64,000 bases of DNA from Pandoraea fibrosis (GTDB lineage: Bacteria; Pseudomonadota; Gammaproteobacteria; Burkholderiales; Burkholderiaceae), in NCBI RefSeq assembly GCF_000807775.2, contig NZ_CP047385.1:1860001-1924000 (forward strand), written 5' to 3'. The translations under genes were made by a program, and so were the position numbers. The notes beneath the pieces were generated by a model. The model did not search any database and was not told where the DNA came from. It saw only the letters and a list, made by a program, of their open reading frames with translations. This document shows positions 7,911 to 12,312 of the stretch, piece by piece (within the stretch, counting starts at the first letter, position 1; every line of letters begins with the position of its first letter).

Positions 7911-9026
7911 ATGAACGAGAACGATCTGGAACTGCAGCTCAACGAAGACCAGATTCGCCATATTCAGGCGATGACCGGACAGCGTATCGGGGCGATTCGA
8001 GTGGTGTCGAATTTCCCGGGGCTTCAGGGGGTACAGGGGGCGCAGGGCGTGCAGGGTATGCAAGGCGCGCAAGGTATGCAGCCTCTGGGAATGCAAGGCC
8101 CGCAGGGCGTTCAAGGTGTGCAAGGTCCGCAAGGCATGCAGTGGCCGCAAGGATATCAGCCCGCGCAAGGTGTGCAGGGCCTGCAAGGGGTTCAAGGCAT
8201 GCAGGGCGCTCAAGGTGTGCAGGGGCCGCAAGGCATGCAAGCGGCTCAGGGCATGCAGGGTCCGCAGGGATATCAGCACGCGCAAGGTATGCAGGGTCCG
8301 CAAGGATATCAACACGCCCAAGGTGTGCAGGGTCCGCAAGGCATGCAAGGGGTCCAAGGCATGCAGTGGCCGCAAGGTTATCAGCACGCGCAAGGCGTGC
8401 AAGGACCGCAAGGTATGCAGGGGGCTCAAGGCGTGCAAGGTCCGCAAGGTATGCAAGGGGTTCAAGGCATGCAAGGTCCGCAGGGATATCAGCATGCGCA
8501 AGGTGTGCAGGGTCCGCAAGGCATGCAGGGCGCTCAAGGCATGCAGGGTCCGCAGGGATATCAACACGCCCAAGGTGTGCAGGGTCCGCAAGGCATGCAG
8601 GGCGCTCAAGGCATGCAGGGTCCGCAGGGATATCAATACGCCCAAGGTGTGCAGGGTCCGCAAGGCATGCAGGGCGCTCAAGGCATGCAAGGTCCGCAGG
8701 GATATCAACACGCCCAAGGTGTGCAGGGCCCGCAAGGCATGCAAGGGGTTCAAGGCATACAAGGTCCGCAGGGATATCAACACGCCCAAGGTGTGCAGGG
8801 TCCGCAAGGCATGCAAGGGGTTCAGGGCATGCAGGGTCCCCAGGGATATCAGCACGCGCAAGGCGTGCAGGGCCAGCAAGGTATGCAAGGAGTTCAAGGC
8901 ATGCAAGGTCCGCAGGGATATCAGCACGCTCAAGGCGTGCAAGGCCCACAAGGCATACAAGGCCCACAAGGCGTTCAAGGGCCGGAGCATGCTCAGGGCA
9001 TTCAAGGCTCCCAGGGGTTGCATTGA
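7911..9026 (+). CDS. Collagen-like Gly-X-Gln repeat protein, putative modified substrate
   Basis: A 371-aa protein in two parts. Residues 1-36 are a leader-like segment with the motif LNEDQIRHIQAMTGQRI (10-26). From residue 37 to the end the chain is triplets of the form G-X-Q (X = V, M, P, A, Y, L, I), except for one break near residue 59 (MQPLG). Gln is at nearly every third position. The first residue of the triplet is usually Gly but becomes His, Tyr, Pro, Ala or Trp at regular places (HAQ about ten times, WPQ twice, YAQ and PAQ once). There are 11 GYQ triplets. The repeat region has no Cys, Lys or Arg. There is no Sec signal peptide, LPXTG or membrane anchor, unlike most bacterial collagen-like surface proteins. 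It is followed by enzyme genes typical of peptide modification. I infer that it is their substrate; no function is known to me. Confidence 0.85.
   Translation: MNENDLELQLNEDQIRHIQAMTGQRIGAIRVVSNFPGLQGVQGAQGVQGMQGAQGMQPLGMQGPQGVQGVQGPQGMQWPQGYQPAQGVQGLQGVQGMQGAQGVQGPQGMQAAQGMQGPQGYQHAQGMQGPQGYQHAQGVQGPQGMQGVQGMQWPQGYQHAQGVQGPQGMQGAQGVQGPQGMQGVQGMQGPQGYQHAQGVQGPQGMQGAQGMQGPQGYQHAQGVQGPQGMQGAQGMQGPQGYQYAQGVQGPQGMQGAQGMQGPQGYQHAQGVQGPQGMQGVQGIQGPQGYQHAQGVQGPQGMQGVQGMQGPQGYQHAQGVQGQQGMQGVQGMQGPQGYQHAQGVQGPQGIQGPQGVQGPEHAQGIQGSQGLH
8485..8988 (+). repeat. Tandem 72-bp coding repeats, seven units
   Basis: The hexamer GATATC recurs exactly every 72 bp at 8485, 8557, 8629, 8701, 8773, 8845 and 8917. 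It marks 24-codon units of eight triplets that open with HAQ-GVQ (once YAQ) and close with GPQ-GYQ. Earlier units (from about 8146) are less regular, with 12-codon insertions and short units. The copies differ mainly at synonymous positions and at the fifth triplet (GAQ or GVQ). This argues for recent expansion by unequal crossing-over under protein-level selection. Confidence 0.9.
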
Positions 9027-9098
9027 TCGCAATGCCGCGGTCGACGGCGCGAGCGTGTGCAGAGGGTTCGCGCGCTAGTGTGCTCGTTGACTAACTGT

Positions 9099-9127
9099 GC
9101 GGCTCGGCAGTCGATTCGCCGAGCCGC
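9099..9127 (+). promoter_or_regulatory. Strong 10-bp hairpin between substrate gene and enzyme genes
   Basis: GCGGCTCGGC (9099-9108) pairs perfectly with GCCGAGCCGC (9118-9127) around a 9-nt loop. It lies in the 151-bp gap between the repeat-protein gene and the PP-loop gene, with no T-tract after it. It could be a partial terminator or a 3'-end stabiliser that makes the repeat protein more abundant than the enzymes. Confidence 0.65.
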
Positions 9128-9177
9128 GAATCCCTGATGAGATATCGCTTTCGATAGCTCGTACTGGAGTTGCGATC

Positions 9178-10736: not shown

Positions 10737-10767
10737 CACGTATCTTTTACCTGACGGAGGCAATGAG

Positions 10768-11130
10768 ATGGCAGCTTCGGAACTGTTTTTCCCAGTGGGC
10801 TCGCTCGGTCTGAGCAAGGAGCAGTCGGCGAAGATCAAGACGGCGTTCGGACACGAGGTCGAGAGCGTGCCGCTGTATCGCGTGGTGCCGGTGTCATCCG
10901 AGGACCGCTTCGTGCCGTTGGCCGACGTGCCGGGATTGCCTGGCATACTCGTGCACTATGGCGACGCGGCTGCACCGGCCGGCATCAATATCATTGCGTC
11001 GGTGATTTCGGATATGGCAAGGGGAACCGACGACTCGGCAGTCTTCGCCGCGCATACGAAGCTCATGGCTCCCCATCCTGACGAGGGTGCCACCAAGGCG
11101 CGTCCGCCTGCGGCCAGTAAAGCGAAGTGA
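10768..11130 (+). CDS. Small protein of unknown function with the shared leader-like motif
   Basis: A 120-aa protein with a good ribosome binding site (ACGGAGGC) before the ATG. I recognise no family. Residues 15-31 (LSKEQSAKIKTAFGHEV) match the motif in the leader of the Gly-X-Gln protein and in the N-terminus of the PP-loop enzyme. Residues 36-90 contain several Val/Leu-rich strands (VPLYRVVPVSS, GLPGILVHYG, GINIIASVI), and the tail is Ala/Lys/Pro-rich. It may be a second precursor, a recognition/carrier protein or a chaperone for the modification complex. Its neighbours on both sides are enzymes of the same operon. Confidence 0.65.
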   Translation: MAASELFFPVGSLGLSKEQSAKIKTAFGHEVESVPLYRVVPVSSEDRFVPLADVPGLPGILVHYGDAAAPAGINIIASVISDMARGTDDSAVFAAHTKLMAPHPDEGATKARPPAASKAK

Positions 11131-11148
11131 ATTGACGAAGCCGTCTCG

Positions 11149-12312
11149 ATGACCCCACACAGTGACGATAAGGGCGATGTCGCTTCAGGCGGCGCGGGCG
11201 ACCTTCTGGTGATGGTCAAGGTCGCCGAGCGCTGCAATATCGATTGCGACTATTGCTACATGTACCGGGGGGTCGATCAAGGTTGGCGGCAACGCCCCAA
11301 GTTCCTGAGCGAGCCTCATCTCGACCAGTTGGTCGAACGTCTGATCGAGCACCGCCACGCGTTTCCATCGGCACGAATGACGTTGGAGATTCACGGGGGA
11401 GAACCGCTGTTGCTCGGCCAACGTCGCACAGCCCGATTCTTCAAGCATCTGCGCAATCGTTTGACCGAAGCCGAATTGGCTATCGTGACGCAAAGCAATG
11501 GTGTGTTGATCGACACGTCATGGCTGGACCTGTATGCCGAGTTTGGCGCCACGCTCGGGATCAGTTGCGATGGCCCTCCCGCGCTGCATGATCGACATCG
11601 ATTCGATTTCGAGAAGCAAGGCACAGGGGCTCGCGTCGAGCACGCGATTCGCCTGTGCCTCTCTTACCCGCAGTCGCGGCGCGTGTTCAATGGCGTGCTG
11701 GCGGTCATCGATCCCAACAACGATCCGGTCAGCATCCTCGACTACTTTCGCGCATTGGGGTTGAGCGACGTCGACTTTCTCCTGCCCGATGCCAACTTTG
11801 CCGCCCCTCCACGACACATTCAGGCATATACGCACGCGCGTTTGCTGGCTTTCCTGTGTCGGGGGTTCGATGCGTGGTTTGCGCTGGACGATCCGGCGTT
11901 TCACGTGCGCATCTTTGAAACGTTCATCCGAGGCGTGCTGGGCCGTCGTTCCGAACTCGACGCATTTGGTGGCGCGTTGGCGCCGATCGCAGTCGTCGAG
12001 AGCGATGGCGGCTATCGGCTGTTGGACGTGCTCTCCATCTGCAAGACCGATGCAAGTTACACCGGGCTGTGTCTTGAGACACATAAGCTTCAGGACTTCG
12101 TCGACCTCGCGCGCACTCGCTATCCGGAGGTTCACGCGGCATGTCGTGAATGTGAGGCGTTTGTCGCGTGCGGTGGCGGCTATGTCGCCCATCGCTTCGA
12201 TGGCGAAAGTTATGACAATCCCAGCTTCTATTGCGACGCGCTTGTCGGCTTCTATCGACATGTCCGCGCACGCGTGAACAACCTCTCGAAGGCAACGCAG
12301 GTCAGACGGTAA
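11149..12312 (+). CDS. Radical SAM/SPASM peptide maturase, FxsB-like
   Basis: A 387-aa radical SAM enzyme. The cluster motif CNIDCDYCY has Cys at 29, 33 and 36. It is followed by WRQRPKFLSE, EIHGGEPLLLG, SNGVLIDTSWLDL and ISCDGPPALHD, a pattern very like the FxsB family of RiPP maturases. The C-terminal ~75 residues carry six Cys (SIC, GLC, AAC, REC, VACGGG, FYC), fitting SPASM-type auxiliary Fe-S clusters. FxsB-like enzymes install carbon-carbon links such as three-residue cyclophanes on aromatic-X-X motifs in peptides. In the substrate candidate the aromatic and His positions (WPQ, GYQ-HAQ) are regularly spaced. The link to that substrate is inferred from operon context. A weak Shine-Dalgarno and an 18-nt gap suggest coupling to the 120-aa gene. 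Confidence 0.88.
   Translation: MTPHSDDKGDVASGGAGDLLVMVKVAERCNIDCDYCYMYRGVDQGWRQRPKFLSEPHLDQLVERLIEHRHAFPSARMTLEIHGGEPLLLGQRRTARFFKHLRNRLTEAELAIVTQSNGVLIDTSWLDLYAEFGATLGISCDGPPALHDRHRFDFEKQGTGARVEHAIRLCLSYPQSRRVFNGVLAVIDPNNDPVSILDYFRALGLSDVDFLLPDANFAAPPRHIQAYTHARLLAFLCRGFDAWFALDDPAFHVRIFETFIRGVLGRRSELDAFGGALAPIAVVESDGGYRLLDVLSICKTDASYTGLCLETHKLQDFVDLARTRYPEVHAACRECEAFVACGGGYVAHRFDGESYDNPSFYCDALVGFYRHVRARVNNLSKATQVRR

Follow-up and report, generated by a model that had tools for sequence, protein, structure and literature searches.

A collagen-like Gly-X-Gln protein of Pandoraea and the radical SAM/SPASM enzyme that likely cross-links its aromatic residues

Within a 64,000-nucleotide stretch of Pandoraea fibrosis DNA (contig NZ_CP047385.1, positions 1,860,001 to 1,924,000; the whole stretch, numbered 1 to 64,000, is called the window here), we analyzed five genes, labeled A to E, that lie in a row on the plus strand and fill positions 7911 to 12312. 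Gene A encodes a collagen-like Gly-X-Gln repeat protein and gene E a radical S-adenosylmethionine (SAM)/SPASM enzyme. In each of the 10 Pandoraea genomes (of 32 searched) that carry E, all five genes are found side by side in an unchanging order. We consider it rather likely that E cross-links aromatic residues of A to the residue two positions further along the chain (i+2), so that A would become a long scaffold bearing many small cyclophane rings. A preliminary description of this DNA had listed five same-strand genes, among them a 371-amino-acid (aa) repeat protein, a PP-loop ATPase, a putative 2-oxoglutarate/Fe(II) oxygenase, and a 120-aa protein of no assigned family, and all of these were confirmed by the open reading frames (ORFs) and by Pfam and NCBIfam searches.

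RESULTS

Aromatic residues of A and the loss of E in P. terrae

The link between E and the repeats of A comes from where the aromatic residues of A are placed. Our conservation sample comprised 32 Pandoraea genomes, and motifs were counted in the nine complete A proteins from genomes with E and in the one A protein from a genome without it (P. terrae). In the former, 143 of the 147 aromatics are followed at i+2 by a residue other than Gly and 4 by Gly, compared with 21 of 25 followed by Gly in P. terrae. Aliphatic residues at the X position served as a control: Gly follows at i+2 for 689 of 711 of them in the genomes with E and for 64 of 68 in P. terrae. The corresponding counts for X-position aromatics are 1 of 70 and 21 of 22. 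These counts imply that A proteins encoded alongside E place aromatics, and not other residues, where i+2 has a side chain. The non-Gly residue at i+2 arises mostly through a His, Tyr, or Trp in a Gly position (His-Ala-Gln, Tyr-Ala-Gln, and Trp-Pro-Gln). The motif aromatic-x-Gln accounts for 67 of the 147 aromatics and is found in all nine complete proteins (and also in the visible 110 residues of a tenth, which is ended by its contig) but is missing altogether from that of P. terrae. Where the sequence reads Tyr-Gln-His, a second aromatic occupies i+2. This pattern ties E to the repeats of A.

P. terrae retains A, B, C, and D at 52 to 73% identity (best tblastn segments). Of E, only a 15-residue tail is left, at the right place and on the right strand (80% identical; expect value, 0.004), and no E-like gene was found in this genome at an expect value of 1e-20 or better. 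The features discussed below are as follows.

7911 to 8015, plus strand: N-terminal leader-like module of A (35 aa, MNENDLELQLNEDQIRHIQAMTGQRIGAIRVVSNF), from conservation and profile similarity to the N termini of B and D
8016 to 9026, plus strand: Gly-X-Gln repeat region of A, main unit 72 bp, from Pfam Collagen and repeat analysis
9024 to 9180, plus strand: conserved structured RNA between A and B, from folding z-score and covariation
9178 to 10173, plus strand: B, PP-loop ATPase with a WbpG/N-acetyl-sugar-amidotransferase-like core (residues 36 to 325) and a probable N-terminal beta-alpha-beta module (residues 1 to 35)
10179 to 10736, plus strand: C, DUF6445 protein, predicted 2-oxoglutarate/Fe(II) oxygenase (H82xD84, H160, R174), from Pfam PF20043 and invariant residues
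10768 to 11130, plus strand: D, 120-aa orphan without a family match, with a probable N-terminal beta-alpha-beta module; proposed second substrate or adaptor
11149 to 12312, plus strand: E, YhhB/FxsB-like radical SAM/SPASM enzyme, predicted three-residue cyclophane synthase, from NCBIfam and cysteine motifs

Distribution of the five genes

An ortholog of E is present in 10 of the 32 Pandoraea genomes, the next matches being 25 to 32% identical, and in all 10 the five genes follow one another in identical order (in one of them, the contig ends inside A). B occurs in the same 10 genomes and in P. terrae and nowhere else among the 32. Conserved co-occurrence had been named beforehand as the test of the proposed system, and it is borne out by these genomes. 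In seven of them, the unit lies between two genes that we take, by name, to be pabB-like and ssuA-like; in the other three, as in P. terrae, it lies elsewhere, and near three of these four loci (L031, L062, and L063) are presumably a LysR-like regulator and a cyanophycin-synthetase-like gene. The pabB-like and ssuA-like genes adjoin each other (gap of about 60 to 210 bases) in 21 of 30 loci, including the four second-site carriers; a pabB-like gene was not seen in two. Recurrence of the unit at two sites with all its parts is what would be expected of genes that work together.

For a wider view, we searched for B (expect value, 1e-20) in samples of 398 genomes from the family, Pandoraea among them, 399 from the order, and 398 from the phylum, scoring only the best few candidates per genome. 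Outside Pandoraea, the order and phylum samples gave four partial matches to the PP-loop core, none of which extended over the N-terminal module, and 60 genomes of one genus of the family gave no match in a search run without a positive control. Plasmids gave only distant matches covering less than 80% of B, viral contigs gave no relative, and a contig scan of genomes with very narrow patterns returned eight loci, all from Pandoraea. The protein database holds relatives of B with the N-terminal module that are 60 to 67% identical (one is named Paraburkholderia ribeironis) and others that are 43 to 52% identical, all known from their protein sequence alone.

When E was searched at an expect value of 1e-45 in the 398 genomes of the family, again with the best few candidates per genome, the 10 Pandoraea genomes and one other genome (G265) were found. 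The relative in G265 (L114, 5397 to 6941) is 29% identical to E and adjoins an 80-residue peptide ORF; no match to A, B, C, or D lies in the 12 kb around it, and this is a distinct system belonging to a related genus. A radical SAM gene other than E but from its superfamily occurs in six Pandoraea genomes (L033 to L037 in G008, G010, G011, G017, and G020, and G178:C1:340638-341369). The genes at L033 to L037 are 26 to 32% identical to E over the compared part and have no A to D beside them; these additional genes probably belong to separate peptide systems. On a plasmid of Rhodococcus sp. DMU1 (L101, 4050 to 6761), three genes in a row encode a short peptide that contains the motifs YDK, HTS, and HLR, an E-like radical SAM enzyme, and what the annotation calls a HEXXH peptide-modification protein.

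The repeat protein A

A comprises 371 aa (7911 to 9026), and its 335-residue core contains 94 Gly-X-Gln triplets. The protein scores 141 bits against the Pfam family Collagen (PF01391; cut-off, 27.2), which places it within this family, although Gly does not recur at every third residue without interruption: in the best single frame of the window protein, 89 of 110 triplets start with Gly and 13 with His, Tyr, or Trp. Gln is found at nearly every third residue (102 of 110 triplets). The motifs of the window protein are Tyr-Gln-His-Ala-Gln (nine copies), Tyr-Gln-Tyr-Ala-Gln (one copy), and Trp-Pro-Gln (two copies), each with an aromatic in the Gly position. The repeats run on continuously, without an evident spacer or cleavage motif, and inspection of the sequence revealed neither a signal-peptide-like stretch at the start nor an evident anchor. 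Across genomes, the length of A ranges from 281 to 384 aa.

The repeats are coding, and A is translated in the called frame, as follows from the concentration of unit-to-unit differences on third codon positions: neighboring 72-bp units differ at 74 of 235 third positions, compared with 18 of 235 first and 16 of 235 second positions, and the codon differences comprise 55 synonymous and 28 nonsynonymous changes. The N terminus is conserved as well. Residues 1 to 35 are identical in the window and in five close relatives even though third codon positions drift, and 32 or 33 of the 35 residues are the same in a second clade and 22 of 35 in P. terrae. A word search for homologs with residues 1 to 45 gave four candidates, none of which was a match. 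Antisense to A runs a 378-aa open frame (7896 to 9032, minus strand), which results from the codon pattern of the repeats and is unlikely to be a gene.

The radical SAM/SPASM enzyme E

E (387 aa) carries the radical SAM motif CNIDCDYC, of the form CxxxCxxC, at residue 29. Five C-terminal cysteines (C298, C332, C335, C341, and C362), which we take to be the SPASM cysteines, are invariant in nine sequences. Against the curated NCBIfam models, E scores 301.9 bits for YhhB (cut-off, 445) and 284.8 bits for FxsB (cut-off, 370); since neither cut-off is reached, we class it as YhhB/FxsB-like and not as a member of either family. The earlier assignment to the radical SAM/SPASM enzymes therefore stands, while the label FxsB-like gives way to the closer YhhB. 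Matches to the DynA and DarE models are weak (88 bits each), and the closest solved relative by sequence is a chain named ChlB (9gm3; expect value, 1e-64). Sulfatase-maturase activity was considered for E and rejected, as A has no Cys and Ser is rare in its core (one in the window protein and zero to seven in relatives).

Within a three-residue motif of its substrate, YhhB is reported to bond the beta carbon of Arg to C3 of Tyr and to C2 of His, and enzymes of this class link residue i to i+2 (PMC11002830). Two annotated YhhA peptides end in SYDRMHHRHNRS, which contains Tyr/His-x-Arg three times. Gly has no beta carbon, so the near absence of Gly at i+2 of the aromatics in A is what a YhhB-like enzyme would impose. 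By analogy with YhhB, we infer that E likely forms three-residue cyclophanes in A.

A module probably shared by the N termini of A, B, and D

The N-terminal beta-alpha-beta module of A probably has counterparts at the N termini of B and D, judging from profile-profile scores set against column shuffles, on which this claim is based. The real A-B and A-D comparisons each beat all 300 shuffles. Eight tests with single-sequence HMMER were mixed: five had at most 30 of 20,000 shuffles as good, one had 395, and two were plainly not significant. Neither Pfam nor NCBIfam holds a family for the module, and in profile scans over the window's 433 ORFs of at least 80 aa, the other two proteins do not stand out. 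If shared, the module may allow A, B, and D to assemble.

The PP-loop ATPase B, the oxygenase-like C, and the orphan D

B comprises 331 aa when read from the ATG at 9178, the longest ORF beginning with a GTG at 9097. Four cysteines (C43, C46, C63, and C66) and the PP-loop SGGKDS are invariant in a 28-row alignment, and the combination of tetracysteine motif and PP-loop is given as the definition of N-acetyl sugar amidotransferases in the accessible part of a paper on these enzymes (PMC10607449). Several features set B apart from WbpG/LpNASAT (TIGR03573; PDB 8wex): it scores 103.2 bits against the N-acetyl sugar amidotransferase model TIGR03573 (WbpG), below the curated cut-off of 203.2; it carries the additional N-terminal module; and none of the five genes is a sugar gene. 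Moreover, its PCxxC motif (C176xxC179) aligns with the PCSYC of PH0300, a sulfur transferase of the TtuA type, and C261 is also invariant (one relative, P0008, lacks C179). Because PCxxC and the third Cys occur in amidotransferase-like matches as well, these cysteines do not discriminate between an amidotransferase and a TtuA/LarE-type sulfur transferase with an Fe-S cluster. Amidation, or alternatively thiolation of an amide, would fit the sequence of B. The amides at hand would be the Gln side chains at nearly every third residue and the peptide bonds of A, and naming them as the target is a guess.

C comprises 185 aa from the ATG at 10179 or 188 aa from a GTG at 10170, and it matches Pfam DUF6445 (PF20043) with 50.8 bits (cut-off, 24). 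Residues H82, D84, H160, and R174 are invariant in nine sequences; we take this HxD...H...R set to be a 2-oxoglutarate/Fe(II) oxygenase motif with a catalytic role. No sequence match for C was found in the PDB at an expect value of 1. One might guess that C hydroxylates Pro, Gln, or Met of the repeats.

D (120 aa) matches no model in Pfam or NCBIfam, and every named one of the seven homologs found comes from Pandoraea. Its predicted structure has a mean predicted local distance difference test (pLDDT) score of 54, with about 57 to 81 over the module (residues 4 to 42) and low confidence for the remainder, and it was used for the N terminus only. D contains invariant aromatic residues in the stretches YRVVP, VHY, and FAAHTK.

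A conserved RNA element between A and B

Compared with shuffled sequence, the segment between A's stop codon and the beginning of B forms a far better fold (z = -4.08). In its closing stem (9024 to 9037 with 9165 to 9178), this stop codon is joined to both the start codon and the Shine-Dalgarno sequence of B, whose start region is thereby sequestered. In the consensus fold of nine aligned sequences, 93.1% of cells are paired; shuffles give 84.4%, and sliding the partners lowers the figure to 48.1% or less. Changes on both sides are seen for 16 of the 45 pairs, mostly between two clades, and they therefore reflect few events. Single-sequence folds contain the closing stem in the window and in L025 to L028 and L031. 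An Rfam scan of the element (9024 to 9180) gave no match, so it is not a listed family, and scans for sigma-70 promoters and terminators found nothing. The element could be a plain coupling device or could sense a ligand. A ribosome finishing A would open the closing stem, so that the enzymes would be made mainly after A.

DISCUSSION

Taken together, these data allow us to sketch how the system may work. A would be translated with its conserved N-terminal beta-alpha-beta module as the likely docking signal, and A, B, and D may assemble through the common module. E would then link Tyr, His, or Trp to the beta carbon at i+2; at sites such as His-Ala-Gln and Trp-Pro-Gln, where an aromatic replaces the Gly of the triplet, the residue at i+2 is Gln. 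At other positions of the repeats, C may hydroxylate and B may use ATP to activate its target; Pro and the side-chain amides of Gln are the obvious candidates, and both targets are guesses. With the ribosome-binding site of B paired to A's stop codon in the RNA element, little of the enzymes would be made before A is translated. Neither a peptidase nor a transporter gene was found within the five-gene unit in the ORF list or with Pfam and NCBIfam, and the likely product is therefore the entire modified protein rather than a small peptide released from it.

Several observations weigh against this scheme or parts of it. The case without E is a single species and a single event, and tandem copies are not independent, so the Fisher p value of 3e-19 for the motif contrast should not be taken at face value. 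A proteins of the second clade keep only one to three aromatic-x-Gln motifs each, so this motif is not needed in bulk, and the survival of B, C, and D without E implies that their reactions do not depend on a cyclophane. As E stays below the NCBIfam cut-offs of YhhB and FxsB, its chemistry may differ from theirs, and the triceptide precursors seen have 60 and 84 aa, far from the length range of A. With regard to the shared module, hhalign probabilities are low (A-B, 16%; A-D, 9%; B-D, 3%), 1 of 150 shuffles was as good as the real B-D comparison in each direction, and the window A protein was not significant against the B profile in single-sequence HMMER (6,736 of 20,000 shuffles as good). As for the RNA element, the single-sequence folds of L029 (made with additional upstream sequence), L032, L063, and P. 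terrae lack the closing stem or place it in a different register.

What E does to A may also go further than single rings. Since most sites read aromatic-Gln-aromatic-Ala-Gln, fused double rings are possible, in which Aro1-Gln-Aro3-Ala-Gln5 would be joined 1-3 and 3-5 to give about ten fused bicycles per chain; this 1-3, 3-5 spacing is that of darobactin. Darobactin carries two cross-links, as stated in the accessible part of PMC9055067. An aromatic-x-aromatic-x-Gln pentad is present in all nine complete A proteins encoded with E (1 to 11 copies) and absent from the one without, both YQHAQ and the reversed HQYAQ occur, and the weak DynA and DarE matches of E point the same way; yet the scores for YhhB and FxsB are about three times that for DarE, and the Trp-Pro-Gln sites of the window protein have no second aromatic in that spacing, which leaves the double ring doubtful. 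That the repeats are instead cut into many small cyclophane peptides by a protease encoded elsewhere, as in a multicore ribosomally synthesized and posttranslationally modified peptide (RiPP), seems unlikely to us. The authors of the Tvg study expect several small products from TvgA, to judge from the available text (PMC9062424), but the Pandoraea unit has neither a protease nor a transporter gene, and its repeats lack evident processing sites.

Other readings would take the repeats out of the chemistry. E might modify D or the N-terminal part of A, with the repeats as a passive carrier, and indeed D has its invariant aromatics and probably shares the module of A, while P. terrae also lacks the Phe that follows the module of A (F35 in the window). 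The aromatics of D persist in P. terrae (P0070), which lacks E, whereas the aromatic motifs of the repeats vanish there, and we regard this reading as quite improbable. Least of all do we expect A to be an ordinary structural or adhesin-like collagen with unrelated enzymes next to it. Its good Pfam Collagen score would suit such a protein, and collagen-like proteins built from one or two triplet types are numerous in Burkholderia (PMC4565658); against this stand the recurrence of the same five genes as a unit at two sites, the covarying RNA structure that ties A to B (as the shared module probably does too), and the lack, on inspection, of a signal-peptide-like start or evident anchor. We retain the cross-linking of A by E as the preferred reading.

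How far does this system resemble those already described? The YhhA/YhhB triceptides are the nearest precedent for E, YhhB being its best curated model, and the two differ in the residue at i+2: substrate motifs are Tyr/His-x-Arg in YhhA and Tyr/His/Trp-x-Gln in A. The two YhhA peptides (60 and 84 aa) have three motifs, whereas A has up to 13 aromatic-x-Gln, and the two YhhB proteins (711 and 716 aa) are longer than E. No PP-loop gene is annotated in the two YhhB neighborhoods, whose gene tables may be incomplete. For the combination of enzymes, the Tvg cluster of Halomonas (TvgA to TvgE) offers a repeat precursor, a radical SAM/SPASM enzyme, and an Fe/2-oxoglutarate oxidase, with repeated modification along the chain, and the same logic is foreseen for the "Cluster 41" H(Y)NR peptides, according to the accessible text (PMC9062424). 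As far as that text goes, the repeats there are TVGG or Y/H-Asn-Arg in peptides and not in a collagen-like protein, the Tvg product is a cyclopropylglycine and not an aromatic cross-link, peptidase/transporter genes are present, and no PP-loop enzyme is named. Among collagens, the Burkholderia collagen-like proteins (Bucl) and other prokaryotic members share with A the Gly-X-Y tracts, a few dominant triplet types, and a length that varies between strains, as described in the portion of PMC4565658 at hand, and A departs from them in the regular replacement of Gly by His, Tyr, or Trp, in its leader-like conserved N terminus, and in the maturase-like genes of the same unit. A review of prokaryotic collagens mentions hydroxylation and glycosylation, and the word "radical" does not occur in its available text (PMC8968730).

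The i to i+2 cross-link (triceptides) and the joint use of a repeat precursor, a radical SAM enzyme, and an Fe/2-oxoglutarate oxidase (Tvg) are thus already known. In the open-access literature, we found no precedent for a collagen-like substrate of a radical SAM enzyme, although one may be in print elsewhere, nor for a PP-loop partner in such systems, and nothing on collagen-like proteins in Pandoraea; as far as this literature goes, the collagen-like scaffold and the PP-loop partner are new. The preliminary description knew of no described system that combines such enzymes with a collagen-like protein, which stands for these two elements, while the kind of system has a precedent in Tvg (in the text available for PMC9062424). 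Its suggestion of a RiPP-like pathway that decorates a repetitive scaffold is in line with the co-occurrence, with the motif pattern linking E and A, and with the probable module common to A, B, and D; "decorates" can be narrowed to a probable cyclophane at aromatic-x-Gln.

It is tempting to speculate further, although we hold the following only tentatively and with considerable doubt. In this ribosomally made bacterial collagen, Gly would regularly be swapped for Tyr, His, or Trp, and each of these would be stapled by the radical SAM enzyme to Gln at i+2, perhaps in fused double rings; the PP-loop enzyme would convert side-chain or backbone amides, the 2-oxoglutarate oxygenase would hydroxylate, the enzymes would dock via copies of the scaffold's own module, and an RNA switch coupled to the stop codon would set their dose, resulting in a protein material stiffened by three chemistries. 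There is a minority chance that the whole system represents a new class of modified structural protein.

To our knowledge, cyclophane-forming radical SAM enzymes are known from short peptides. Here, the substrate of such an enzyme appears to be a collagen-like scaffold of protein length, with an amide-activating enzyme and an oxygenase acting alongside. The rule of no Gly at i+2 amounts to a sharp prediction, and through the loss of E in P. terrae, nature has supplied two matched substrates, of which one contains the sites of the enzyme and the other does not. If the proposed cross-linking holds true, it would offer a genetically encoded route to stiffen and functionalize collagen-like materials and would represent a novel bacterial means of producing modified collagen.

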